From Lysobacter sp. K5869 (GTDB lineage Bacteria > Pseudomonadota > Gammaproteobacteria > Xanthomonadales > Xanthomonadaceae): 64,000 bases of DNA. The translations under genes and the position numbers were made by a program. This document shows positions 24,661 to 40,811 of this stretch, piece by piece. Where the stretch lies: contig NZ_CP072597.1 in NCBI RefSeq assembly GCF_018847975.1, forward strand, positions 620,001 to 684,000. The letters run 5' to 3'. The notes under the pieces were generated by a model. The model was not told the DNA's origin and did no database searches. It saw only the letters and a program-made list of their open reading frames with translations. Positions within the stretch are counted from its first letter, which is position 1; every line of letters starts with the position of its first letter.

Positions 24661-26067
24661 TCAACCGCGGGGACGGCCCGGACCGAGCTTGCGGGTCAAG
24701 GTATTGCGCCCCAGCCCCAAGCGCGCCGCCGCTTCGGTGCGGCGGCCGCCGGTGTGGGCGAGCGCGGCTTCGAGCAAGGCGCGGTCGAAACGTTCGCGCG
24801 CCTCGGCATGCAGATTGGCGCGGCCCTCGGCCAACTGCGCGCGCGCCCACGCCGACAGCAGCGCTTCCCATTCCTCGCCCGCGCCCGCCGCGTTCGCGGG
24901 CGGGGCGCCGAGCGCTTCGTCGAGATCCTCGCGCGCGATCGCATCGCCCGGCGCCAGCGCGGCCAGACGCCAGCACACGTTCTCCAACTCGCGCACGTTG
25001 CCGGGCCAATCGTGCGCCATCAGCCGTTCCAGCGCGGGTTTCGACAAGCGCTTGAGCGGCGTGCCGAAGCGCTGCGCGGCGGCGGCGAGAAAACGCTCGG
25101 CCAGTTGCGGCACGTCGCCGCGGCGCTCGCGCAGCGGCGGCAGGCGCAGGCGCACCACGTCGAGACGGTGCAGCAAGTCGGCGCGGAATTTTCCTTGCGC
25201 GACCAAGCCTTCCAAATCTTGGTGGGTCGCGGCGATCACCCGCACATCGACCCGGATCAGTTCGCGCCCGCCGACGCGGAAGAACTCGCCTTCGGCCAGC
25301 ACGCGCAGCAAGCGCGTCTGCAGCGGCAACGGCATGTCGCCGATTTCGTCGAGGAACAAGCTGCCGCCGTGGGCCTGCTCGAAGCGGCCGACATGGCGGC
25401 GCTGCGCGCCGGTGAACGCGCCGGCCTCGTGGCCGAACAACTCGCTTTCCAGCAATTCGGCCGGAATCGCCGCGGTGTTGAGCGCGACGAAGGGCTTGTG
25501 CGAACGCGGCGATTCGCGGTGCAGCGCGCGCGCGACCAATTCCTTGCCGGTGCCGGTCTCGCCGGTGATCAGCACCGACAGCGGCGCCTGCGCGAGCCGG
25601 CCGATGGCGCGGAACAAGGTCAGCATCGCCGGGGTGTCGCCGATCAAGGTGTCGGCGGCGGCCGCTTCGGCGTCCGGCTCGGCCGGCGCTTGCGGCGCGC
25701 TGGTCGCCAGCGTGCGCGCGGCCAGCGCGACGGCCTCGTCGAGATCGAACGGCTTGGACAAGAATTCCTGCGCGCCGCCGCGGAACGCGCCGGCGGTGCT
25801 GGCGACGTCGGTGTAGGCGCTCATCACCACCACCGGCAGCGACGGCGCGCGCGCCTTGAGTTTTTCCAGCAACGCCAAACCGCCGTCGCCGGGCATGCGC
25901 ACGTCGGTGAACAACAGGGCCGGCGCGCCGCGCTCCTCCAGCGCGCTCAACGCGTCGGCGGCGTTCTCGAATCCATCCACTTGATAACCGGCCTCGCGCA
26001 GCGCGGTGGCGAGCACGAAGCGGACCGAACGGTCGTCGTCGACGACCCACACGCGCGCCGCGCTCAT
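24661..26067 (-). CDS. ntrC: Nitrogen regulation response regulator NtrC
   Basis: 468-aa sigma-54 enhancer-binding protein. The receiver domain has phospho-acceptor Asp55 in LLFTDVRMPGD. A central AAA+ domain carries Walker A GETGTGKE (169-176), GAFTGA (215-220, the sigma-54 contact) and GGSLFLDEIGDMPL. A Fis-type helix-turn-helix lies at the C-terminus (RTEAAARLGLGRNTLTRKL). All three domains are intact. It overlaps the ntrB stop by 4 nt, so the pair is translationally coupled. Controls nitrogen-starvation genes with NtrB; glnA is not in the window. Confidence 0.95.
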   Translation of the reverse strand: MSAARVWVVDDDRSVRFVLATALREAGYQVDGFENAADALSALEERGAPALLFTDVRMPGDGGLALLEKLKARAPSLPVVVMSAYTDVASTAGAFRGGAQEFLSKPFDLDEAVALAARTLATSAPQAPAEPDAEAAAADTLIGDTPAMLTLFRAIGRLAQAPLSVLITGETGTGKELVARALHRESPRSHKPFVALNTAAIPAELLESELFGHEAGAFTGAQRRHVGRFEQAHGGSLFLDEIGDMPLPLQTRLLRVLAEGEFFRVGGRELIRVDVRVIAATHQDLEGLVAQGKFRADLLHRLDVVRLRLPPLRERRGDVPQLAERFLAAAAQRFGTPLKRLSKPALERLMAHDWPGNVRELENVCWRLAALAPGDAIAREDLDEALGAPPANAAGAGEEWEALLSAWARAQLAEGRANLHAEARERFDRALLEAALAHTGGRRTEAAARLGLGRNTLTRKLGPGRPRG

Positions 26068-27137
26068 GCCTGCGTCTCCCCGGGCGCTTGCCCGTCGTTG
26101 TCTTCGATGTGCATCGGCAGCAACAGCGTGAACACCGTGTGGCCGGGACGCGAGCGATAAGTCAGCGACCCGCGATGCTCGCGCGCGACCTGCTGCGCCA
26201 GCGCCAGCCCGAGCCCGCTGCCTTCGGCGCGGCCGGACACCAGCGGCAGGAACAGTTGCTCGGCCAGTTCCTCGGGCACGCCGCGGCCGTCGTCGATGAT
26301 CTCCAGGCGCAGCGCGATCGGATGCGCGCTGTCGCCGATGCGCGCGCCGTGCTCGACCCGGGTGCGCAGATGGACGTGATTGGCGCCGGCCTCGATGGCG
26401 TTGCGCGCCAGATTCCACACTGCCTGCATCAAGCGGTCGGCGTCGCCGGCGAACTCGGGCAGGCTGGGGTCGTAGTCGCGCACCAGGCGCACCGCCCAAC
26501 CGGCGTCGGCTTCGGCCAGACGCAGCACGCGTTCGAGCACGGCGTGGATGTTGAGCGGCGCGTGCGGCCGCGGCGGCGCCGGCGTCAGCAAGCGGTCGAC
26601 CAAGCCGGTGAGGCGCTCGACTTCGCTGTCGATCAGTTCGATCAACTCGCGCGAATCGGCGTCGTCGACGCGGCGCGCGAGCAATTGCGAAGCGCCCTTC
26701 AAGCCGGCGAGCGGATTGCGCAGTTCGTGCGCGAGCCCCTTGAGCGAGGCCGACAACGCCGACGGCAACAACAGCGCCGGATCGTCGCCGGGAAACTCGT
26801 CGACCGGATGCGCTTCCAGCAACCAGCCGCCGTCCTCGCGCCGGCTCAGCCACAGATCGGCGAAACGCTCTTCGCCGTCGCCGTAACGCAAGCGCATGCG
26901 GCGCATGCGCAACGGCGCTTCGTCGCCGCCCGCGCGCGCCACCGCCAGCGCCAAACGGCCGTCGCCCGCATCGAGCCCGGCCAGCGGCCAGCCCAGTAAG
27001 CGCCGCGCGCCGACGCCGAACCAGCGCGAGAACGCGAGGTTGCAGCCGGTCAGGCTGCCGGCCGCGTCGCTCCAGGCGATGGGCGTGGTCAGGCCGTCGA
27101 GGCCGAGGTCGGGAGCGGGCTGGGGGTCGGAGGGCAT
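26064..27137 (-). CDS. ntrB: Nitrogen regulation sensor kinase NtrB
   Basis: 357-aa soluble histidine kinase. An N-terminal PAS-like domain (PIAWSDAAGSLTGCNLAFSRWFG) is followed by the H-box with His137 in GLAHELRNPLAGLKGA and the ATPase N-box NLARNAIEAGANHV, then DDGRGVP and GSGLGLALAQQ. No membrane helix, as expected for NtrB/GlnL, which senses nitrogen status through PII. ATG 27137 is chosen because upstream in-frame sequence is unrelated to the family. First gene of ntrBC; divergent from an SDR-like gene. Confidence 0.94.
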   Translation of the reverse strand: MPSDPQPAPDLGLDGLTTPIAWSDAAGSLTGCNLAFSRWFGVGARRLLGWPLAGLDAGDGRLALAVARAGGDEAPLRMRRMRLRYGDGEERFADLWLSRREDGGWLLEAHPVDEFPGDDPALLLPSALSASLKGLAHELRNPLAGLKGASQLLARRVDDADSRELIELIDSEVERLTGLVDRLLTPAPPRPHAPLNIHAVLERVLRLAEADAGWAVRLVRDYDPSLPEFAGDADRLMQAVWNLARNAIEAGANHVHLRTRVEHGARIGDSAHPIALRLEIIDDGRGVPEELAEQLFLPLVSGRAEGSGLGLALAQQVAREHRGSLTYRSRPGHTVFTLLLPMHIEDNDGQAPGETQA

Positions 27138-27298
27138 TGCACCATCATAGTGCAGCGCCTCGCCGCGATTACGGGGCCAATCGGCCCCTTTATTATTTAA
27201 CCAATCAGTTGACAACAAGGCCCGACAAGGCTTTAGATGGCCATCCCCGGCGCCGCCTCAACGCGGACGCCGCACCGTCATGGCTCATCGGAGGCTCT

Positions 27299-30395: not shown

Positions 30396-33300
30396 TTACA
30401 GCGGCGCGCCGCCGAACTTGTGGGTGTATTGCACGAACACTTGCCGGCCCAGGGCGTCGAACCAGGACACGTCGTAGTACGGGTAGCTGGTGTAGCCCTT
30501 GTCGCGCGGCGGCATCTTGTCGAACAGGTTGGTCACCGACACCGACAGCTGGTTGTGGTCGGTGAAGCGGTATTGCAGCGACAGGTTGTAACGATAGGTC
30601 GCGCCGATCCACGGGCTGTCGCCGTCGGCGGGATCGTAGTTTTCGCTGTAGGACGCGTAGTTGGGCAGCTTGCCCAGACGCTCGCCGTGCACGGTCGCGG
30701 TCCAGCGGTCGCGTTCCCAACTCACGCTGGCGCTGGCCTTGCTGCGCGGGATGTCGAAGCCGCTGTTGACCGCGAACTGGTCCTCGACGCGGTCGCCGGC
30801 GTACTGCTGGCTCTCGTGTTCGCGCACCCAGCTGTAGTTGCCGCTGAAGCGGAACGTGCCGACCGAGGTTTCCCAGCGCCAGCGCGCGGTGAAGTCCACG
30901 CCGCTGGTGCGTTCGCTGGCGATGTTGATCGGGTTGACGTAGGCGCCGTACAAACGGCCGTCGGCGCCGCGGGTGACCCGCGCGCGCGCGTCCACGCAGG
31001 TCGGCGAGTTCGCGTCCAGCGCGCTGCCGTCGGCGCGCTGGCCCAGGCGGCAATCGGCTTCGTCGCGCAGCACGCTGTCCAGGCGCAGGTCCTGGACCTG
31101 GCGGCGCAGATCGATGTCGTAGTAATCCAGCGAGAAATCCAGGTTCGGCAGCGGCGACCACACCACGCCGGCGGTCCACGCGGTGCTGGTTTCCGGATCG
31201 AGCTTGCGGTTGCCGCGCCGCGTCACGATCACGTTCTCGTCGGAATACGAGCAATCCGCGTAATCCACGCCCGGCTCTTCGCTGCGGCAACGGTAGTAAT
31301 CGATGCCCGTCGCCTCGCTGTTGCCTTCGCCGGCGAACACGTAATGCAGGTCCGGCGCGCGGAACGCGGTGCCGTAGGAGCCGCGCAGCAGCAAGGTGTC
31401 CAGCGGCCGCCATTCCAGGCCGGCGCTGTAGGTGAACTTGTCGATGGTGTTGCCGCTGTAGCGGTATTCGTCGTAACGGCCGGCGACGCTGAGGTTCAGG
31501 CGTTCGAACAGCGGCAGGCGCAGTTCGCCGGCCGCGGCCCAGCGGTCGCGGCTGCCGTGGCCGTCGGAATCGCGCCAGCTGTAGTAGTAGTACTGCGTGG
31601 CCAGCGGATCCGGGCGCAGGTTGTAGCTCTGGTTGCCCACTTCCACGGTGCCGGCGAAACCGGCGGCGCCGGCCGGCATCTGGAACAGCTCGGTGTTGGT
31701 GAAGGTCAGCGACAGCGTGTCGGTGCGCGACTTGGGCTGGTACACGGTGCGCTGCGCGATCGAGTCGTACTCGCTGCGCGTCAGCGGCCGGTACAGGCGC
31801 GAGGGATCGGCGTCGAACACCGGGAAGCCGTCGTCGTCGGTGCCCAGCTGCGGGCCGAGGAACAGCGCGTTGGCCTTGGCCGCGACGATCTGCGGCCAGC
31901 TGATGCTGGACTGGTACTGCGAATGGCTCAGCGCCGCTTCCCAATCCCAGTTCGCGCCCCAGCGGCCCTTGAAGCCGGTGGTGAGGCTGAAGGTCTTTTG
32001 CCGAGTGCGGATGTCGCCATTGGTGAGGCCGCCCATCTCTTCCGGAGTGAACTGGCGCTGCCAGAACTCGACCTGCTCGGTGGCCCGGTTGTAGAAGTAG
32101 CCGCTCTCGTCGCCGTTGGGCGCCTGATAGCTCCAGCCGGTCACGTCGCGGAACATCGACAGTTCGTGATAGCCCAGCTGCACGTCGGCGAACCACTCGG
32201 TGTCGTTGCCGAAGCGGTAGCTCAGCGAGCCGTAGGCATTGAGCCCGCGGCGCTTGCTGATGATGGTGCCGTAGCCGATGGAACGGTCGCTACCGCAGTA
32301 ATAGCCGGGCTCGCCGTCGGCGCCGTAGTTGGCGCGCGAGGCACGGTAGGTGCTGCCGCCGTTGAGCGAGGACAGGCCGTCGCAGGCCGCGCCCGGGTCG
32401 AGGTATTCGTCGTCCCAGTTGGTGCGCAGGAACACCCGACGCGGCGCGCGGCTGCCGGCGGTGGGGCCGTCCAGGGTCGAATCCTGGCGCGAGCGGTCGT
32501 AGGCCCACAGCGGGTTCTGCACCTGCAGTTCGGCGCCGTAGATCGCGGTGAAGCGGTCGTTGCTGAAGCCGCTGGACACGCTCAGGTCGAACGATTCGGC
32601 GCCGCCGCGGGTGGCGTCGCCCATGCGCACGTCGACCGTGGTGCCGTCGGCCTGCTTCTTGAGGATGAAGTTGACCACGCCGGAAATCGCGTCGGAGCCG
32701 TAGATGGCCGAGGCGCTGCCGGTCAGGATCTCGATCCGCTCGACCATGCCCAGCGGAATATTGGAAATGTCGGTGAAGTTGCTGCGGCCCTTGAACGGCA
32801 TCGGAAAGTCGGCGATGCGGCGGCCGTTGACCAAGACCAGGGTGTGGTTCGGGCCGAGGCCACGCAGATCGACCTGCTGCGCGCCGGGCGAGAAGTCGGC
32901 GCCGCTGGCCGATTGCTGGCTCTGGGTTTCGCCGCCGTTCTGGGTCATCGCCCGCAGCACGTCGGGCACCGAGGTGAAGCCGTTGGCTTTGATTTCCTGC
33001 GCGGTCATCACCGTGACCGGCGCCGGGCCTTCGATCTGCGCGCGCGGAATGCGCGAACCGGTGACCTGGATGGTTTCCAGGTCGGTGGCCGATACCGGCT
33101 CCGGCGAAGCGCCGCCGGTGGCGGCCTGCGCGCGCGGCGCGGCCGCGGCCGGCTTGGGCTTGGGTTTGGCGGCGTCCTTGACGATCACCATGCCGCCGGA
33201 CGGATCGCGGCGGGCGACGAAGCCGCTGCCGTGCAGCAGCCGGTCGAGCGCGTCGCCGGCCGGCATCGTGCCGCTGACGCCGGCCGTGCGCAGGCCGCGC

Positions 33301-33482
33301 AGCTGATCGGCGGAATAGACGAACTGCGCGCCGGACTGGCGCGCCAACGCATCCAGCGCGGCCGACAGATCGCCGGCCGGGACATCCACCCGCGCCGGCG
33401 TCCCCTGCGCCTGCGCGGACAAAGCGGCGGAACACGCCAAGGTCAACAGCAGTACACGCAACCCACGAACGCCACGCAGCAT
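30396..33482 (-). CDS. TonB-dependent receptor with N-terminal STN signalling domain
   Basis: 1028-aa outer-membrane receptor. Signal peptide to about residue 26 (LSAQAQG), then an STN domain (about 30-100: VDVPAGDLSAALDALARQSG, FVYSADQLRGLRTAGVSG) that contacts a FecR-type anti-sigma protein, a Pro/Ala linker, a plug domain (IQVTGSRIPRA, QQVDLRGLGPNHTLVLVNG, VERIEILTGSASAIYGSDAISGVVNF) and a long barrel ending in FVQYTHKFGGAPL. Large plugs of the GSRIPR type are typical of oligomer or peptide receptors in Xanthomonadaceae. It follows FecR and sigma genes on the same strand and faces a divergent cyanophycinase/isoaspartyl-peptidase pair, suggesting uptake of Asp-Arg polymer fragments (inference). 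GGGGAG precedes the ATG. Confidence 0.92.
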   Translation of the reverse strand: MLRGVRGLRVLLLTLACSAALSAQAQGTPARVDVPAGDLSAALDALARQSGAQFVYSADQLRGLRTAGVSGTMPAGDALDRLLHGSGFVARRDPSGGMVIVKDAAKPKPKPAAAAPRAQAATGGASPEPVSATDLETIQVTGSRIPRAQIEGPAPVTVMTAQEIKANGFTSVPDVLRAMTQNGGETQSQQSASGADFSPGAQQVDLRGLGPNHTLVLVNGRRIADFPMPFKGRSNFTDISNIPLGMVERIEILTGSASAIYGSDAISGVVNFILKKQADGTTVDVRMGDATRGGAESFDLSVSSGFSNDRFTAIYGAELQVQNPLWAYDRSRQDSTLDGPTAGSRAPRRVFLRTNWDDEYLDPGAACDGLSSLNGGSTYRASRANYGADGEPGYYCGSDRSIGYGTIISKRRGLNAYGSLSYRFGNDTEWFADVQLGYHELSMFRDVTGWSYQAPNGDESGYFYNRATEQVEFWQRQFTPEEMGGLTNGDIRTRQKTFSLTTGFKGRWGANWDWEAALSHSQYQSSISWPQIVAAKANALFLGPQLGTDDDGFPVFDADPSRLYRPLTRSEYDSIAQRTVYQPKSRTDTLSLTFTNTELFQMPAGAAGFAGTVEVGNQSYNLRPDPLATQYYYYSWRDSDGHGSRDRWAAAGELRLPLFERLNLSVAGRYDEYRYSGNTIDKFTYSAGLEWRPLDTLLLRGSYGTAFRAPDLHYVFAGEGNSEATGIDYYRCRSEEPGVDYADCSYSDENVIVTRRGNRKLDPETSTAWTAGVVWSPLPNLDFSLDYYDIDLRRQVQDLRLDSVLRDEADCRLGQRADGSALDANSPTCVDARARVTRGADGRLYGAYVNPINIASERTSGVDFTARWRWETSVGTFRFSGNYSWVREHESQQYAGDRVEDQFAVNSGFDIPRSKASASVSWERDRWTATVHGERLGKLPNYASYSENYDPADGDSPWIGATYRYNLSLQYRFTDHNQLSVSVTNLFDKMPPRDKGYTSYPYYDVSWFDALGRQVFVQYTHKFGGAPL

Positions 33483-33801
33483 CAGGCTCCCCTCCCCATC
33501 GGCGCTCGTGAAGCGCCGTTGTGTATGTCAGACGAACGAAGTCGGCAAATCCCGCATGCGGCGGCGGAAAAGGTTCCGGGCCGCGAGGGGCGCGTAGTGT
33601 GCCGGGGCGGTGTCGGGGCGAACAGAGACGCGGGCCTCATCCGCTCCCTGCTTTCGCAAGCGCAGGCGGTTCGGGCGCCTTCTCCCGCGAGCGGGGCGAG
33701 CCGCCGCCTCGCGCGGCCGCGAGCGCGCGAGCGCTACGCGTTCGGGCCGGGGAACCAGTCTCGGAACTCGACGAACCCCGCCAACGGCCCTAGCCGTCGC
33801 C
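33483..33801. other. Intergenic stretch before TonB receptor
   Basis: 319 bp between the FecR-like stop and the receptor start, without a credible gene. It should hold a promoter for the ECF sigma factor encoded just upstream, but I could not pick -35/-10 elements with confidence. Confidence 0.5.
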
Positions 33802-34881
33802 TCAGCGACTGCGCAGCACGATCCGATCCGGCAACCGCTCCGCCTTCACCGGCATCGCCTGCTCCACCAGCCCGACGAACATCTCCGCGTTCGACCAGCG
33901 GAAATTCCCGCCCACGCGCAGCTCCCCCGCGGCCGCGTCGGCGATCACCAGCTTGCGCGCGCTGTAGCGGTTGAACTCGGCCGCGGCCTGCGCCAGCGGC
34001 GTGTCGCGGAACACCAAATACCCGTGACGCCAATCGACGTAACGCTCGGCTTCCTCGACCGGCACGCTGCGCACCAGCACGCCGTTGGGCCCGGCCAGGG
34101 CGATGCTGCCGGCCGGCAGCAGCGTGGTCGGCTGCGGATGCCCGCCGACCGGTTCGGACTCCAGGCGCACCGTACCCTCGGTCACCACCACGCGCAGGTC
34201 GGCGCCGTCGCGCCGGACCGAGAAATGCGTGCCCACCGCGACCACCCGGCGCGCGCCGGCTTCGACCGCGAACGGCCGGCCCGGATCCTTGGCCACGTCG
34301 AAGAAGGCTTCGCCCTGGGCCAACTCGACCCGCCGCCGCGCGCCCGACAGCGCGACCTCGATGCGGCTGTCGCTGCTCAGGGTCGCGCGCGAGCCGTCGG
34401 CCAGCGCTACTTCGTCGGTCTTGCCCAACGCGGTGCGGTAACTCGACCGTTCGACCGCGCCGTAATGCAGCCACGCCCAACCCAATCCCACCGCCAGCGC
34501 GGCGACCGCGGCGGCGGCCGCGAACGGCCAGCGCGAGGCGCGCGTCGGCGCCGGGCGCGGCTGGAAACTCAGGGCATCGGCGCGCAGCGGCGACGCCGGC
34601 GCGAACGCGTCCGCCGTGACGGCCCGGTGCGCGGGCGCGGCGTCGTCCCAGGCCACGCGCGCGGGCACGCCCGGCTCGTCGCCGGCCAAGGCGCGCAAGC
34701 GCTCGGCTTGCGTCCACGCCGCGCGCAGACGCAGGTACGCGACCCGGTGCGCGGTCGCGCGCGCCAGCCAGTCGTCGAGTTCGGCCTGCGCCGCGGCGGT
34801 CCACTCGCCGCTTTCGCGACGGGCCAACCACTGCGCGGCGATGCCTTCAATCTGCTTGCTGCTTGCCGCCATGTCCACCAT
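33802..34881 (-). CDS. FecR-like anti-sigma factor
   Basis: 359-aa inner-membrane regulator. The cytoplasmic N-terminal part has the DUF4880-type start IAAQWLARRESGEWTAAAQAELDDWLA. One transmembrane helix (about residues 127-145, WPFAAAAAVAALAVGLGWAW) leads to a periplasmic FecR domain (YRTALGKTDEVALADGSRATLSSDSRIEVAL, GEAFFDVAKDPGRPFAVEAG, VAVGTHFSVRR). A C-terminal STN-like segment (FNRYSARKLVIADAAAGELRVGGNF) resembles the region that meets the receptor. It overlaps the sigma gene by 35 nt. ATG 34881 and ATG 34872 are both possible starts. Confidence 0.92.
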   Translation of the reverse strand: MVDMAASSKQIEGIAAQWLARRESGEWTAAAQAELDDWLARATAHRVAYLRLRAAWTQAERLRALAGDEPGVPARVAWDDAAPAHRAVTADAFAPASPLRADALSFQPRPAPTRASRWPFAAAAAVAALAVGLGWAWLHYGAVERSSYRTALGKTDEVALADGSRATLSSDSRIEVALSGARRRVELAQGEAFFDVAKDPGRPFAVEAGARRVVAVGTHFSVRRDGADLRVVVTEGTVRLESEPVGGHPQPTTLLPAGSIALAGPNGVLVRSVPVEEAERYVDWRHGYLVFRDTPLAQAAAEFNRYSARKLVIADAAAGELRVGGNFRWSNAEMFVGLVEQAMPVKAERLPDRIVLRSR

Positions 34882-35503
34882 GTCCGTGCGTCCCGTCCTC
34901 CGCCGCCGGACGCCGCGCGGGCGCCTCGCGCCGCGCCCGGCCGTCCGCGGCCTTCCTGACTTCGCCGTCCTCGCCCGCCTCCAGCAACGCCGCGTCGCCG
35001 CCGAAGTAGTGCTCGGCCAACAGGCGCATGCCCTTGGCGATCTGCTTCTCGACGGTCTTCTCGGTGATGCCCATGCGCTGCGCCACCTGTTTCTGCGGCA
35101 ATTCCTCGACCCGACGCAACCACACCGCCTCACGGCAGCGCTCGGGCAGACGGTCGAAGGCTTCGGCCAGGCGGCGCAGGTTCTGGCGCGCGCCGAGCCG
35201 GCGCTCGGGCGAGCACTCATCTATCAAGACGTTCAAGGACTCGAAATCACCCACCGGCTCGATCGACACCACCCGCCCGCGGCGCAAACGGTCGGTCATC
35301 AGATGCCGGGCGGTGGCGAACAGGAACGATTTGGGCTGGTGCGGACGCGCCTTGCCGGCCGCCTCGTAGACGCGCACATAGACTTCCTGGCGCAGGTCGT
35401 GGACCTCGTCCGGATGCGGCCAGGCCCGGCGCAAATACTGCACCAGCGCCGCTTCGTGGGTCAGGATGTCGGCGGCGAACCACGCGTCCAGATCGTTGTC
35501 CAT
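34847..35503 (-). CDS. ECF sigma factor, FecI-like
   Basis: 218-aa extracytoplasmic-function sigma factor. Region 2 is recognisable (YLRRAWPHPDEVHDLRQEVYVRVYEAA, FLFATARHLMTDRLRR) and region 4 is a helix-turn-helix (LPERCREAVWLRRVEELPQKQVAQRMGITEKTVEKQIAKGM). The tail past about residue 165 is long, charged and Gly/His-rich (HGHGGHGGKQQ), longer than in FecI and overlapping the next gene. It should direct transcription of the TonB receptor at 30396-33482 when FecR is relieved. Divergent from the cyanophycinase gene, 121 bp apart. Confidence 0.92.
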   Translation of the reverse strand: MDNDLDAWFAADILTHEAALVQYLRRAWPHPDEVHDLRQEVYVRVYEAAGKARPHQPKSFLFATARHLMTDRLRRGRVVSIEPVGDFESLNVLIDECSPERRLGARQNLRRLAEAFDRLPERCREAVWLRRVEELPQKQVAQRMGITEKTVEKQIAKGMRLLAEHYFGGDAALLEAGEDGEVRKAADGRARREAPARRPAAEDGTHGHGGHGGKQQAD

Positions 35504-35624
35504 GCGCCGACATTAGCCCAGCCCCGCGCGCCGCGCATCCGTCCGCCGCGGCGCGCGCGGCGATGGGGGATCGCGCCGCCCTGCTTCGTCGTGATGTAGA
35601 GATCCCAGTTTCGGAGAGCGTGCG

Positions 35625-36770
35625 ATGCGCGGTTCGTCGATGTGGTCCTGGTCCGCGCTGCGGCGCAAAACCCTGGCCGGGCTGTGGCTCGCCGCGGGAC
35701 TGGCCTGCGCCGGCCTGAACGCGCACGCGCAAGCGCCCGCCGGCGGCGTCGATCCAGCCCAGCGCGACGGTTACCTGTATTACGACATCGGCCGCCTCGA
35801 CGCGCCGCGCCCGCAGCCCACCCGCGCCGGACTGATGCTGGTCGGCGGCGGCGACTGGCCGCGCGAGGCCTTCGCCTGGATGGTCGAACGCGCCGGCCAC
35901 GGCCGCATCGTGATCCTGCGCGCGTCCGGCACGGTCGAGGCGCAGAACGAGTTCTATCACGACATCGGCGGCATCACCGGCGCGCAGACGCTGGTGTTCC
36001 AGGACCGCCGCGCCGCCAGCGACCCGCAGGTGCTCGACATCGTCCGCCGCGCCGACGGCATCTTCATCGCCGGCGGCGATCAATCGCGCTACGTGCGCTA
36101 TTGGAAGGACACGCCGCTGGCGCGCGCGCTCGACGCGCACGTGCGCGCGGGCAAGCCGATCGGCGGCACCAGCGCGGGGCTGGCGATCCTCGGCGCGTAT
36201 TCCTACGGCGCGATGGACGGCGGCAGCGTGGTCTCGCAAGCCGCGCTGGACGATCCGGCCGGGCCGAAGCTGACCATGGTCGACGACTTCCTGCACCTGC
36301 CCTACCTGCACAACGTCGTCACCGACAGCCACTTCGGCAAGCGCCAGCGGCTCGGCCGGCTGATCGCGTTCCTGGCGCGGCTGTCCAACGAACACGGCCG
36401 CCGCGATCTGGTCGGCCTGGGCGTGGACGAATACACCGCGCTGTGCATCGACGCGCACGGCGAAGGCAGCGTGTTCAGCGGCAACGGCGGCAAGGTCTGG
36501 CTGGTCAAGCCGCGCCAGCCGGCGCGCGGGTTCGCCCAGGGCGGACCCTTGAACCAGCGCGCGGTGCCGGTGATCGGCATCGGCGAGGGCAGCGCGCTGC
36601 GCATGCGCGATTTCAAGGTCGAGCGGCCGGCGTTCGTCGAGCTTTATGATGTCGAGTCCGGGCAGTTGATCCTGCGCGAGGACCCCGCCGACGGCGACGC
36701 CGCGCGCGAGGGCTTGCGGCTGCCGAACTTGTCTGATGGAGCCGATGATGACGAACTCGTTGCGCCGTAA
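35625..36770 (+). CDS. Exported cyanophycinase (peptidase family S51)
   Basis: 381-aa secreted serine peptidase. Signal peptide to about residue 36 (LAAGLACAGLNAHAQ). S51 features: LMLVGGGDWP at about 70-79, FIAGGDQSRYVRYWKDTPL, nucleophile Ser183 in GKPIGGTSAGLAILG, and LGVDEYTALCIDAHG. The YVRYWKDTPL segment and GDQ turn fit cyanophycinase better than alpha-aspartyl dipeptidase. It would cut multi-L-arginyl-poly-L-aspartate to beta-Asp-Arg dipeptides outside the cytoplasm. Its stop overlaps the following isoaspartyl peptidase by 23 nt. GGAG precedes the ATG. A wider S51 specificity cannot be excluded. Confidence 0.82.
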   Translation: MRGSSMWSWSALRRKTLAGLWLAAGLACAGLNAHAQAPAGGVDPAQRDGYLYYDIGRLDAPRPQPTRAGLMLVGGGDWPREAFAWMVERAGHGRIVILRASGTVEAQNEFYHDIGGITGAQTLVFQDRRAASDPQVLDIVRRADGIFIAGGDQSRYVRYWKDTPLARALDAHVRAGKPIGGTSAGLAILGAYSYGAMDGGSVVSQAALDDPAGPKLTMVDDFLHLPYLHNVVTDSHFGKRQRLGRLIAFLARLSNEHGRRDLVGLGVDEYTALCIDAHGEGSVFSGNGGKVWLVKPRQPARGFAQGGPLNQRAVPVIGIGEGSALRMRDFKVERPAFVELYDVESGQLILREDPADGDAAREGLRLPNLSDGADDDELVAP

Positions 36771-37803
36771 TCTGCAGCACTCGTGTTGCGCCGTGTTGTT
36801 GGGATCGATGGCGCTGGCGCCCGCCGCCTGGGCCCTGGAACCCGCCGCGCCCAAGCCGGTCCTGGTGATCCACGGCGGTGCCGGCGTCGAACGCGCCGGC
36901 CTCAGCGAACAAGACCAGAAGGACGCGCGCGCCGCGCTGGAAAGCGCGCTGCGCGCCGGCCACGCCGCGCTCGCCGCGGGCAAGCCGGCGCTGGACGCGG
37001 TGAGCGCGGCGATCGTGGTGCTGGAAGACGCGCCGATGTTCAACGCCGGCCGCGGCGCGGTGTTCACCCACGACGGCAAGAACGAACTCGATTCGGCGGT
37101 GATGGACGGCGCCAGCGGCCGCGCCGGCGCGGTCGCCGGCGTGCACCGGGTCAAGAACCCTATCGTGCTGGCGCGCGCGGTCATGGAAAAATCCAAGCAC
37201 GTGATGCTGGTCGGCGACGGCGCCGAGGTCTTCGCCAAGGAAGCCGGCGTGAGCTTGGTCGATCCGTCCTACTTCCGCACCGAAAAGCGCTGGCAGCAGT
37301 TGCAGAAGGCGCTCAAGGAAGAGGCCTCGGGCCAGGCCCACGCCGACCTCGAAACCGCCAAGCACTTCGGCACCGTCGGCGCGGTCGCGCTGGATGCCGA
37401 CGGCCATCTCGCCGCGGGCACCTCGACCGGCGGCATGACCAACAAGCGCTACGGCCGCGTCGGCGACTCGCCGATCATCGGCGCCGGCACCTACGCCGAC
37501 GCGCGCTGCGCGGTCTCGGGCACCGGCTGGGGCGAGTACTACATCCGCGCGGTGGCCGCGCACGAGATCTGCGCGCGCATGCGCTACGCCGGCCAGAGCG
37601 TGCGCGAAGCCGCCGAGGGCGTGATCGACAACGACATCCCCAAGGCCGGCGGCGACGGCGGCGCGATCGTGCTCGGCGCCAACGGCGAGTTCGCCCTGCC
37701 GTTCAACACCGAAGGCATGTACCGCGGCTGGATCGGCGCCGACGGCGTGCCGCACGTGGCCTTGTTCAAGGACGAAAAGCTGGCGGAGCCGGCGGGGCGC
37801 TGA
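36748..37803 (+). CDS. iaaA: Exported isoaspartyl peptidase / L-asparaginase (Ntn type, family T2)
   Basis: 351-aa Ntn hydrolase made as an autocleaving precursor. Signal peptide about residues 1-30 (CCAVLLGSMALAPAAWA). Alpha-subunit block PVLVIHGGAGVERAGL and FNAGRGAVFTHDGKNELDSAVMDG; catalytic Thr209 in HFGTVGAVALD becomes the new N-terminus after cleavage; TSTGGMTNKRYGRVGDSPIIGAGTYAD and TGWGEYYIR complete the site. It splits beta-aspartyl dipeptides such as beta-Asp-Arg, the product of cyanophycinase encoded just before it. Start chosen at ATG 36748 (GGAG 6 nt upstream); ATG 36736 and 36745 are alternatives. Periplasmic location is predicted. Confidence 0.9.
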   Translation: MTNSLRRNLQHSCCAVLLGSMALAPAAWALEPAAPKPVLVIHGGAGVERAGLSEQDQKDARAALESALRAGHAALAAGKPALDAVSAAIVVLEDAPMFNAGRGAVFTHDGKNELDSAVMDGASGRAGAVAGVHRVKNPIVLARAVMEKSKHVMLVGDGAEVFAKEAGVSLVDPSYFRTEKRWQQLQKALKEEASGQAHADLETAKHFGTVGAVALDADGHLAAGTSTGGMTNKRYGRVGDSPIIGAGTYADARCAVSGTGWGEYYIRAVAAHEICARMRYAGQSVREAAEGVIDNDIPKAGGDGGAIVLGANGEFALPFNTEGMYRGWIGADGVPHVALFKDEKLAEPAGR

Positions 37804-38159: not shown

Positions 38160-40811
38160 TCAGCGATTCGCCATCCGCATCCGATTGACCATCACCTGCA
38201 ACTCATCGCGCGGCATAGCGTTGATGTAATCGATCGCCTCCTGCCCGTCCAACGGCCGCCCCGCGCCGATGCGGTTGTCGCGCGCGGCCTGCATGATCAA
38301 AGGCACCGTCGGCACCGACAGGTAATACTCGTCCTCGCCCTGATCGCTCAGCACCGCCGCGGCGTCGGCGTCGAAGCCGGCGTTCTTCAGGAATTCGATC
38401 GAACCGTTGATCTTCTGCTGATGGTCGCGGTAATCGCCGAGCGAAGCCTGGCCGAACACCGACACACCGATCATCACCGAACCCACCAGCGCGCCGACCG
38501 GCCCGGTCGACAAGGCCATCACCACGGTGCCGGTCGCGCCCAAACCGTACAAGCCGGCTTCCACGCCCTTGAGCGGACGATCCGACAGCAGCGCATCGAC
38601 CAGCTTGGCCACGTCGCCCACCGCCGACACCACGCCCAACACCTTGTTGACGTTCTCGAAACGCTTGAGCCCGTTCTCCAGCGCTTCCATCGCCGCCGGC
38701 GAATTGCGGTCGACGGCTTGCATGGCCGGGTTGCTCAGCAGATCGCGCGCGTCCTTGACCAAACCGGCGGCGTCGCCGAACGCGCCGATCTGATTGGCCC
38801 AGGTCGGGTCGCTGATCGCATCGGACGTGGACTTGGCGAACGCCAAACCCGCCGCCGCCACGCCCAGCGCGCGGAAGGTGATGCCGGCCGGCTGCTTCGC
38901 GCCGAAGCCTTCGATGCCCTGCAATTCGGTGTGGAAGCGGTTGAGCTGGGTCGCCATCGCCTGGGTGTCGCCGGCGGGCACGTCGAGCAGTTTCTCCAAC
39001 TCGCCGATCGCGCGGCCGTACTGCTCGGCGTCCTTGCCCAGCGCGCCGGCGTATTGGCGGCTCAGCCCTTCCAGCTTGGTCTTGCCGTCGGCGATGCTGG
39101 CCGGATCGGCCGGATCGACATCGGCGAACACGCTCATCGCGTTCTGGTTGATCGCCTGACTGGCGAGGCGCTTCAAGTATTCGGCGCCTTCCTTCGACAC
39201 CTTGGTCGTGTCGAACAGCGCCGCCGTCGAATCGGCGTCGCGCCCGACCAGGAAGCGGTCGTCGCTGCCGGCGGCGAGGCCGAAGGCCTGCAAGGTGTCG
39301 TCGTCGTTGGCGATGGACTTGATCTTGTCCATCAGCCCCGGATTCGTCGCCTTGACGCTCTCGGGCAACGAATTCAAACCGGCCAACGCTTCCTGCAGGC
39401 TGCGCGCGTCGGCGCCGAGGTTCTTCTCCAGCGATTGGTACTTGCTCAGCCAATCCGGATCGTCCTTGCCCTTGGCGGCGAGGTAATCGTTGACCGCTTT
39501 GTTCAACTTGTCCGGCGGCAACCCTTCCGAATACTTCAGCAGGCGCGCCAGCTCGCCCATCATGTCCTTGTAGTCGCCGAGGTTGCCCTCGATGCGCTGC
39601 TGCAACAGCTCCGCGCCGTGGCTCACGCCGCCGAGGAAGGCGCCGGCCAGTTCGTTCTCGCCCTTGGCCTGCAGCTGCTTGGCCATGTCCAGCGCCAGCC
39701 CGGGGCCGATGCCGTCGCGCACCGCGTTGGCGATGTTCTCCTGGAACGGAATGCCTTGCCCGCGCCAATCGCCGGAATGGGCGACGTACGAGGCCGCGAT
39801 GTCGGAACGCAGGCTCAGGCCTTCGGGCGTGTCTCCGAGCGATTCGGCGATCCTGGCCATGTTGGCGTAGGAGCTGCCGCCGAACTTCTCGCCGGCGTAC
39901 ATCGGCTTGACGTCGGTGATGCGCATCACCGTGTCGATGTTCTGGGTCACCACGGCTTGGGCCAGCGCGGGCGGCAAGCCGTCGACCAGTTCGGCCAAGC
40001 GCTTGGACGATTCGTCGGCCGGGCCTTGCAGCGCCTTGGGATCGCGGTTGCCGGCGTCGACGCCCTTGAACGGCTCGCTCACGTACGGCTTGATCTTCTC
40101 GTTGATCAGCTGGCCCAACTCGACGCTGGTGGACAGCCGCTGCTGCGCCTCGGGCGAAATCTTCGACCACTGATCCTTGAGGAGGCTGACCACCGACTTC
40201 GGATCGCCGGCCTTGGCGACCATCACCGTGAACTCGACTTCGTAATCGATGCGGATGTCCTTGCTCACCGCCTCGATGCCGGCGCGCGCGGCCGGGTTGT
40301 CGGCGTAGCGCTCGGCGATGCTGCGGCCGTAGCCGTCGATGGCGGCGGTGTCGTAGACCGCGCCGGTCGGGCGCGCGTCGAACTCGGCCTGATAGCGCGA
40401 CTGCATTTCCGCCTTCACCGCGGCCTTGAGCTCGGCGCGGGTTTGCGGCGTGGAATGCGCTGCGTCGGCCTGCACCGCGGTGTCCACGCGCTGCACTTCC
40501 GGCGACTTGGCCGGCGCGCCGGGCGCTTGCTCGGTGTAAGCGACGGTCTGCACCTGCGGGTCGTCGTGCTCGGCCGGCGGCAGTTCGATCTGAGTATCGG
40601 GGTACAGCGCCTCCCAGTTCAGCACCTGCGGATTGGCGTCCTTGATGCGCTGCTCGTACAGCGCCTGCGGCACCGCGCCGCGGTACTGCGCGGCGATCTG
40701 CGGCAGCGTCTCGTCGCGGGCGATGGTATGCACCGGCGGCACCGGCTTGGGCGGCGCGGCCAGTTGCTGGACGGTGCGCGAAACCGAGTCGAGGAAGCTG
40801 AAGAGGGACAT
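38160..40811 (-). CDS. Large LysM-domain protein of unknown function
   Basis: 883-aa protein. After a short N-terminus (MSLFSFLDSVSRTVQQLAAPPKP) comes a LysM-like module at about residues 28-77 (HTIARDETLPQIAAQYRG, LNWEALYPDTQIELPP). A very long, mostly helical, Asp/Ala/Lys-rich body follows. Near the C-terminus two hydrophobic stretches stand out: about 640-665 (FRALGVAAAGLAFAKSTSDA) and about 753-788 (GLYGLGATGTVVMALSTGPV onward to SVFGQ), a possible membrane-inserting hairpin. No Sec signal peptide. LysM plus a long helical body and late hydrophobic hairpin suits a secreted toxin- or translocator-like protein, but I recognise no family. No clear ribosome site is seen at 40811. Monocistronic. 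Confidence 0.8.
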   Translation of the reverse strand: MSLFSFLDSVSRTVQQLAAPPKPVPPVHTIARDETLPQIAAQYRGAVPQALYEQRIKDANPQVLNWEALYPDTQIELPPAEHDDPQVQTVAYTEQAPGAPAKSPEVQRVDTAVQADAAHSTPQTRAELKAAVKAEMQSRYQAEFDARPTGAVYDTAAIDGYGRSIAERYADNPAARAGIEAVSKDIRIDYEVEFTVMVAKAGDPKSVVSLLKDQWSKISPEAQQRLSTSVELGQLINEKIKPYVSEPFKGVDAGNRDPKALQGPADESSKRLAELVDGLPPALAQAVVTQNIDTVMRITDVKPMYAGEKFGGSSYANMARIAESLGDTPEGLSLRSDIAASYVAHSGDWRGQGIPFQENIANAVRDGIGPGLALDMAKQLQAKGENELAGAFLGGVSHGAELLQQRIEGNLGDYKDMMGELARLLKYSEGLPPDKLNKAVNDYLAAKGKDDPDWLSKYQSLEKNLGADARSLQEALAGLNSLPESVKATNPGLMDKIKSIANDDDTLQAFGLAAGSDDRFLVGRDADSTAALFDTTKVSKEGAEYLKRLASQAINQNAMSVFADVDPADPASIADGKTKLEGLSRQYAGALGKDAEQYGRAIGELEKLLDVPAGDTQAMATQLNRFHTELQGIEGFGAKQPAGITFRALGVAAAGLAFAKSTSDAISDPTWANQIGAFGDAAGLVKDARDLLSNPAMQAVDRNSPAAMEALENGLKRFENVNKVLGVVSAVGDVAKLVDALLSDRPLKGVEAGLYGLGATGTVVMALSTGPVGALVGSVMIGVSVFGQASLGDYRDHQQKINGSIEFLKNAGFDADAAAVLSDQGEDEYYLSVPTVPLIMQAARDNRIGAGRPLDGQEAIDYINAMPRDELQVMVNRMRMANR

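Follow-up and report, generated by a model that had tools for sequence, protein, structure and literature searches.

A probable cyanophycin-scavenging locus with its own predicted sigma control in Lysobacter sp. K5869 and its relatives

Cyanophycin is a nitrogen-rich polymer that is stored by bacteria. Here, we analyze a 64,000-nucleotide (nt) stretch of the genome of Lysobacter sp. K5869 (positions 620001-684000 of a 5.97-Mb single contig, here referred to as the window), in which genes for a putatively exported S51 peptidase and a putatively exported isoaspartyl peptidase (IaaA) stand divergent to genes for an extracytoplasmic function (ECF) sigma factor, a FecR-type regulator and an STN-bearing TonB-dependent receptor. 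We conclude that this locus is real and conserved, and that it probably serves the sensed scavenging of cyanophycin.

The closest described systems are clusters of cyanophycinase and iaaA genes, reported in 30 of 32 genomes that lack cphA1 (PMC10206079, which also cites the “cyanophycin utilization locus” of Ben Hania 2017). As in such clusters, the putative cyanophycinase gene of the window adjoins that of an isoaspartyl peptidase, no synthetase scores over its cut-off, and a putative transporter, here the TonB receptor, lies near. Unlike those clusters, which carry iaaA or iadA, the loci studied here have the TonB receptor as a constant partner and an added sigma/FecR controller, and 62 of the 160 have the two enzymes as one fused protein. 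In Citromicrobium sp. JLT1363, too, a TonB receptor lies near a cyanophycinase gene, and its substrate was guessed as cyanophycin (PMC3400609); however, that account of one genome, as available, names no isoaspartyl peptidase, sigma factor, FecR, STN domain or promoter. Several Sphingomonas loci in our comparison, among them L124 and L128, resemble this receptor-cyanophycinase pair in a version that lacks sigma.

With FecI/FecR/FecA-type signalling, the locus shares an ECF sigma factor, FecR, an STN-bearing TonB receptor and a conserved motif ahead of the receptor gene, but here the motif also precedes the peptidase pair and the predicted substrate is a nitrogen polymer, not iron. The S51 peptidase resembles Pseudomonas CphE (PMC3235067) in its apparent Sec signal (here judged by eye), in the catalytic Ser/His/Glu, in five of the six residues of the pocket and in a hydroxyl residue in place of Gln173. 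This likeness concerns individual sequence features, and the CphE description, as available, mentions no receptor, sigma or isoaspartyl peptidase neighbor. A different, storage-type cphA-cphB pair is reported from L. capsici AZ78 (PMC4742617), and other S51 enzymes are treated in PMC6243061, PMC7564069 and PMC2536512. A preliminary description of this DNA was not aware of the five-gene arrangement as a described system, which overstates its novelty: cyanophycinase/iaaA clusters and a TonB receptor beside cyanophycinase are in print (PMC10206079 and PMC3400609), whereas the sigma/FecR form, its co-variation with STN, the shared promoters and the S51-IaaA fusion were not found in the open literature that we searched, outside which most subscription papers lie.

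The receptor-peptidase pair and its enzymes

We compared 160 loci from Lysobacterales, Sphingomonas and Asticcacaulis, many of them closely related within both sets: a first set of 97 (the window, 16 further loci and the best 80 of 521 relatives) and a second set of 63 (80 fetched minus 17 identical). The receptor gene is divergent to the S51 gene, either adjoining it or with sigma and FecR genes between, in 153 of the 160 (92 of 97 and 61 of 63), and lies 65 to 2524 nt from the S51 start. Four of the seven loci without a receptor run off their contig and have sigma and FecR (L049, L070, L073 and L078), one has only a receptor remnant (L202), and a fusion locus (L092) and an S51 locus (L208) have none; all seven were kept in the counts. 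Among 100 relatives, including the genome itself, S51 is matched in 58 and its exported type, at 44% identity or more, in 25. By hand tally, the same 25 genomes hold a receptor of the window type at 54% identity or more, the next match being at 47%. In two drafts (G034 and G044) receptor and S51 genes lie on different contigs, and one genome (G025) has a second receptor copy elsewhere. In wider samples, S51 was matched at E up to 1e-60 in 95 of 398 genomes from the order and in 10 of 398 from the phylum, and at E up to 1e-30 in 6 of 369 genomes from the class.

Where the compared loci extend far enough to show them, the flanking genes of the window are shared only by members of Lysobacter or of the window's own genus. 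A chance neighborhood of five genes is ruled out because the divergent order is so widely conserved, the same 25 genomes hold both receptor and peptidase, and most flanking genes are absent outside Lysobacter. The preliminary description had named conservation of gene order as a check on its reading, and the order is indeed kept in relatives. One Stenotrophomonas-type locus, which groups in Stenotrophomonas, comes from a record titled Bacillus subtilis SK7B5 (L100) that is probably mislabelled or contaminated.

The S51 peptidase of the window keeps the catalytic Ser/His/Glu and the pocket residues Gln101, Asp172, Arg178, Arg180 and Arg183. This set is kept in all 160 loci, Glu201 excepted, which is Glu in 151 and Gln in 9. 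The position of Gln173 holds a hydroxyl residue throughout (Ser in the window; Thr in 120 and Ser in 40 of the 160); the roles of these residues in cyanophycinase and CphE, including the Thr of CphE where CphB has Gln173, are taken from PMC3235067. In a structural model, mostly of low predicted local distance difference test (pLDDT) confidence over residues 1 to 41, the predicted fold is nearest to cyanophycinase, nearer than to PepE-type dipeptidases. Cyanophycinase-specific residues, the second check that had been set in advance, are thus present. The nine proteins with Gln for the third catalytic residue (L098, L099, L102, L170, L173, L182, L190, L210 and L211) are otherwise unchanged at catalytic and pocket positions, and three are from named Rhodanobacter. 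Three further S51 relatives (L055, L056 and L057) have the same catalytic set at 30 to 31% identity over the alignment to the window protein; one of them (L057) has an export-type N terminus, and the fetched stretches of all three contain no TonB receptor of the window kind.

IaaA has the catalytic Thr209 together with T227, R237, D240, S241, T259 and G260, equivalents of all of the nucleophile and substrate residues listed for the Escherichia coli enzyme (EcIaaA T179, T197, R207, D210, S211, T230 and G231; PMC10206079). Another Asparaginase_2-like place in the genome shows 39% identity. Both enzymes have Sec-type N termini as judged by eye, no signal-peptide predictor having been used. S51 and IaaA form one open frame with both active sites in 17 of the 97 first-set loci and 45 of the 63 in the second set, and are separate genes in 63 and 9, respectively; a contig edge falls here in 4 first-set loci and in none of the second set. 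Seven aligned fusions are 647 to 690 amino acids (aa) long, and proteins with both Pfam domains also occur in the protein collection (e.g., P0053 and P0111). On the best tree, in which many branches are weakly supported, fusion status changes at least nine times.

The putative sigma/FecR controller and its predicted promoters

The window has the three linked components of FecI/FecR/FecA-type signalling: the ECF sigma factor (TIGR02937, 85 bits; cut-off, 42.9), FecR (which scores 21.7 bits on PF16220, under the cut-off of 25) and the STN-bearing receptor. Sigma and FecR genes occur together in 44 of the 97 first-set loci; in the second set, 48 of 63 loci have FecR, and 45 of these 48 also have the usual sigma. 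The Pfam STN domain (E up to 0.01) was detected in 87 of 88 receptors from loci with FecR (40 of 40 and 47 of 48) and in none of 65 from loci without it (0 of 52 and 0 of 13).

From the receptor promoters and the S51 promoter of the window we read a candidate promoter motif, GGGA[AT]-N12..16-CGTC, 21 to 24 nt long and mostly ending in GTTCGTC, and fixed the pattern before the second sample. In the first set, it lies ahead of S51 in 43 of 44 loci with sigma (shuffles lead one to expect 0.5) and in 0 of 53 without (0.3 expected), ahead of the receptor in 38 of 40 loci with FecR (0.8 expected), and toward the sigma gene in 0 of 44. In the second set, loci with FecR have it ahead of S51 in 44 of 48 and ahead of the receptor in 42 of 48; for those without FecR, the counts are 1 of 15 and 0 of 13. 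The single match without FecR (L202) is in a decayed locus that has lost sigma and FecR and in which the C-terminal end of a receptor lies beside an S51-IaaA fusion. In the K5869 genome, GGGATTTN6TTCGTTCGTC has one perfect match only, the receptor promoter; a genome scan at receptor-type spacing for a wider regulon gave one more site, with two mismatches and no clear promoter context (5234020-5234042).

Three second-set loci (L212 to L214) are wired differently. Their ECF sigma factors score 28 to 35 bits on the profile of the usual sigma, compared with 276 bits for the nearby L210, and their FecR proteins are distant (146 to 156 bits); the sigma and FecR domains of L212 and L214 are also recognized by Pfam. 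The receptors have N termini of STN length that align to the STN part of the receptor profile. Ahead of S51 and receptor, the usual motif is replaced by a common TTTCAAAA-N10..17-CGTC, found at three of three S51 and two of three receptor promoters and at either promoter in 0 of 156 other loci (window not counted), a pattern read from the same three loci in which it was counted. Together with two sigma-less loci (L215 and L216), they form one clade in a quick tree (Shimodaira-Hasegawa-like approximate likelihood ratio test support, 100). In these loci the controller was apparently acquired separately or replaced, and its sigma is seemingly non-orthologous.

Counting either motif, within 330 nt ahead of S51 or 200 nt ahead of the receptor, matches occur at 90 of 92 S51 promoters from loci with FecR and 1 of 68 without, and at 82 of 88 and 0 of 65 receptor promoters, respectively. 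FecR status changes at least six times on the best tree, four of these changes being forced by the starred branches. This pattern suggests that sigma, FecR and STN make up an optional controller, gained or lost as one unit, around a core formed by the receptor-peptidase pair. The sigma factor is predicted to drive the receptor and S51 promoters and probably not its own gene.

Weighing the readings

We favor, with a probability of about 0.72, the reading of the block as a scavenging system with its own sigma control for exogenous cyanophycin, or for a very similar poly-Asp with beta-linked Arg/Lys. The genome gave no match over cut-off to cyanophycin synthetase (TIGR02068; best E, 2.6e-16) and a single match to the window S51, which dismisses an intracellular CphB/CphA storage system. 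By hand tally of the 100 relatives, cphA over cut-off shows no link to the exported locus, being present in 10 of the 25 genomes that have the locus and in 31 of the 75 that lack it. Because the genome has no such synthetase and relatives show no association between cphA and the locus, the polymer would be that of other organisms. The cyanophycin-use block with cell-surface signalling of its own, as proposed in the preliminary description, is borne out at the level of sequence by the conserved order, the cyanophycinase residues and a shared promoter motif that tracks sigma.

Cyanophycin as the substrate, import by TonB, STN-FecR-sigma signalling and the periplasmic site of the enzymes are all points that we infer. 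In the proposed mechanism, basal STN-receptor would bind cyanophycin chains or oligomers and carry them across the outer membrane with TonB energy. Following the FecA/FecR/FecI paradigm, the STN domain would pass ligand binding on to FecR, freeing sigma, which may then direct transcription from the two matching promoters suggested by comparative sequence, those of the receptor gene and of the S51-IaaA pair. To judge by conserved residues and fold, periplasmic S51 would cut the Asp backbone to yield beta-Asp-Arg, and periplasmic IaaA would split this into Asp and Arg.

The same function could be served in another order. S51 might be secreted and make beta-Asp-Arg outside the cell, the receptor importing dipeptides or short oligomers for a periplasmic IaaA. 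The Sec-type N termini of both enzymes are compatible with this order, the CphE of P. alcaligenes carries a Sec signal and is found outside the cell (PMC3235067), and cyanophycin is poorly soluble (PMC10206079). However, because S51 and IaaA are a single chain in so many loci, both cuts would share one compartment; were the fused enzymes outside the cell, free amino acids would therefore result and no receptor would be needed. Furthermore, beta-Asp-Arg is small enough to pass through porins, and to devote a TonB receptor to it would be wasteful. It is thus likelier that polymer or oligomer is imported first and then cut in the periplasm, and the sequence of sensing, cutting and then importing given in the preliminary description fits the fusions less well. 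About three-fifths of our confidence in cyanophycin scavenging is placed on import before cutting, so that the odds overlap with those of cutting first, which we hold to be unlikely, if the least so of the alternatives.

That the locus instead scavenges isoaspartyl peptides from damaged protein in general is improbable: IaaA enzymes, those from cyanophycin clusters included, act promiscuously on beta-aspartyl dipeptides (PMC10206079), but the arginine-rich cyanophycinase pocket is kept in the S51 proteins of all 160 loci and the modeled fold also speaks for a cyanophycinase over a PepE-type dipeptidase. We give still less credence to an iron or siderophore signalling receptor that merely lies beside two peptidase genes, or to peptidases that release the iron bound by a peptide siderophore. 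FecI/FecR/STN receptor sets are best known from iron uptake, and the solved folds nearest to the receptor model are those of siderophore receptors; yet the receptor remains linked to S51 whether or not sigma is present, both occur in the same genomes, and the sigma motif lies ahead of S51 too. Nor did Fur-type control find favor, a 19-nt Fur box matching at best 8 of 19 positions in the sigma-S51 gap, 9 of 19 before the receptor and 11 of 19 in the whole window, a weak test. Detoxification of peptidyl-nucleotide antibiotics, known for some S51 peptidases such as MccG, is very remote, as the third triad residue of MccG is Asp (PMC9239234), not the Glu or Gln seen here, and the IaaA partner and receptor would be left unexplained.

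Several results weigh against cyanophycin scavenging with sigma control as we propose it. The receptor model (pLDDT, 73.8) is nearest in predicted fold to siderophore receptors such as PfeA and FpvA, a match tempered by how common these are among solved receptors. S51 scores 101.8 bits on TIGR02069, under the curated cut-off of 126.6, and IaaA scores 327 bits on NF007589, the E. coli-type beta-aspartyl-peptidase equivalog, with a cut-off of 567; we rejected the latter label on its score, and the label of CphB-type intracellular cyanophycinase on the score and the replaced Gln173. IaaA is missing in 22 of 160 loci (13 and 9), including all six named Sphingomonas, and the promiscuity of IaaA and the extracellular site of CphE noted above count here as well, the periplasmic site being our inference. 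Eight flanking proteins were scanned and no inner-membrane transporter was seen among them, four matching nothing. On the side of the controller, the motif is also matched in the direction of the sigma gene in two second-set loci (L160 and L174), and Pfam misses STN in L212 and scores it at 26.6 and 25.6 bits in L213 and L214, under the cut-off of 28.4. Finally, the co-variation of motif and STN with FecR lacks phylogenetic independence: the starred branches allow three independent pairs for STN and four for the S51 motif, and those that differ agree without reaching significance.

More tentatively, at somewhat less than even odds, we suggest two things in combination. A TonB receptor without an adjoining SusD-like gene may import a branched amino-acid polymer, as chains or oligomers of cyanophycin, for private periplasmic digestion by cyanophycinase and isoaspartyl peptidase, often as one bifunctional protein, and a sensing cassette of sigma, FecR, STN and two matching promoters may have been added more than once, with non-orthologous sigmas. 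If true, TonB-dependent “selfish” uptake and FecI/FecR signalling would extend beyond iron and glycans to a storage polymer of peptide nature, and Lysobacter, Stenotrophomonas, Rhodanobacter, Luteimonas and Sphingomonas would regularly feed on cyanophycin in soil and water. The loci would also provide a natural experiment on signalling wiring, in which receptor domain, regulator and two promoters arrive together, once with a different sigma. The two-promoter regulon and the enzyme fusions are directly testable predictions, and natural cyanophycinase-isoaspartyl peptidase fusions could serve in making Asp and Arg from cyanophycin.

Layout of the locus and its surroundings

The five-gene layout is as first described (Table 1), including the 23-nt overlap of the S51 and IaaA genes, which holds with the IaaA start at 36748 and becomes 35 nt if an upstream ATG at 36736 is used. 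The start of the FecR gene overlaps the end of the sigma gene by 35 nt.

Table 1. Features of the putative cyanophycin-scavenging locus, in positions of the window
Feature	Position	Strand	Details
STN-domain TonB-dependent receptor, putatively capable of signalling, 1028 aa	30396..33482	-	PF07660 STN, PF07715 Plug, PF00593 barrel
Predicted sigma promoter of receptor, GGGATTTGCCGACTTCGTTCGTC	33531..33553	-	48 nt ahead of receptor ATG
FecR-type anti-sigma/sigma regulator	33802..34881	-	PF04773, 74.5 bits; ATG at 34881
FecI-like ECF sigma factor	34847..35503	-	PF08281 Sigma70_r4_2, PF04542 Sigma70_r2; TIGR02937
Predicted sigma promoter of peptidase genes, GGGATCGCGCCGCCCTGCTTCGTC	35567..35590	+	34 nt ahead of S51 ATG
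Putatively exported S51 peptidase, putative CphE-like cyanophycinase, 381 aa	35625..36770	+	PF03575
Putatively exported isoaspartyl peptidase (IaaA, N-terminal nucleophile [Ntn] hydrolase), 351 aa	36748..37803	+	PF01112, 378.7 bits

By S51 identity, the closest named relatives in one scan, which may leave out records of the genome itself, are Lysobacter sp. yr284 (94%) and L. enzymogenes ATCC 29487 (93%). About 3.2 kb from the receptor gene lies ntrC (24661-26052, minus strand; TIGR01818, 677.8 bits; cut-off, 558.6), together with the gene of an NtrB-like kinase (26064-27218, minus strand) that scores 205 bits on PRK11073, under the cut-off of 240; none of 60 long relative loci extends as far as these two genes. 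Past IaaA, an 883-aa protein without an NCBIfam match is encoded at 38160-40811 (minus strand), and its gene is present in 5 of the 59 long loci that reach it, all from Lysobacter or the window's own genus.

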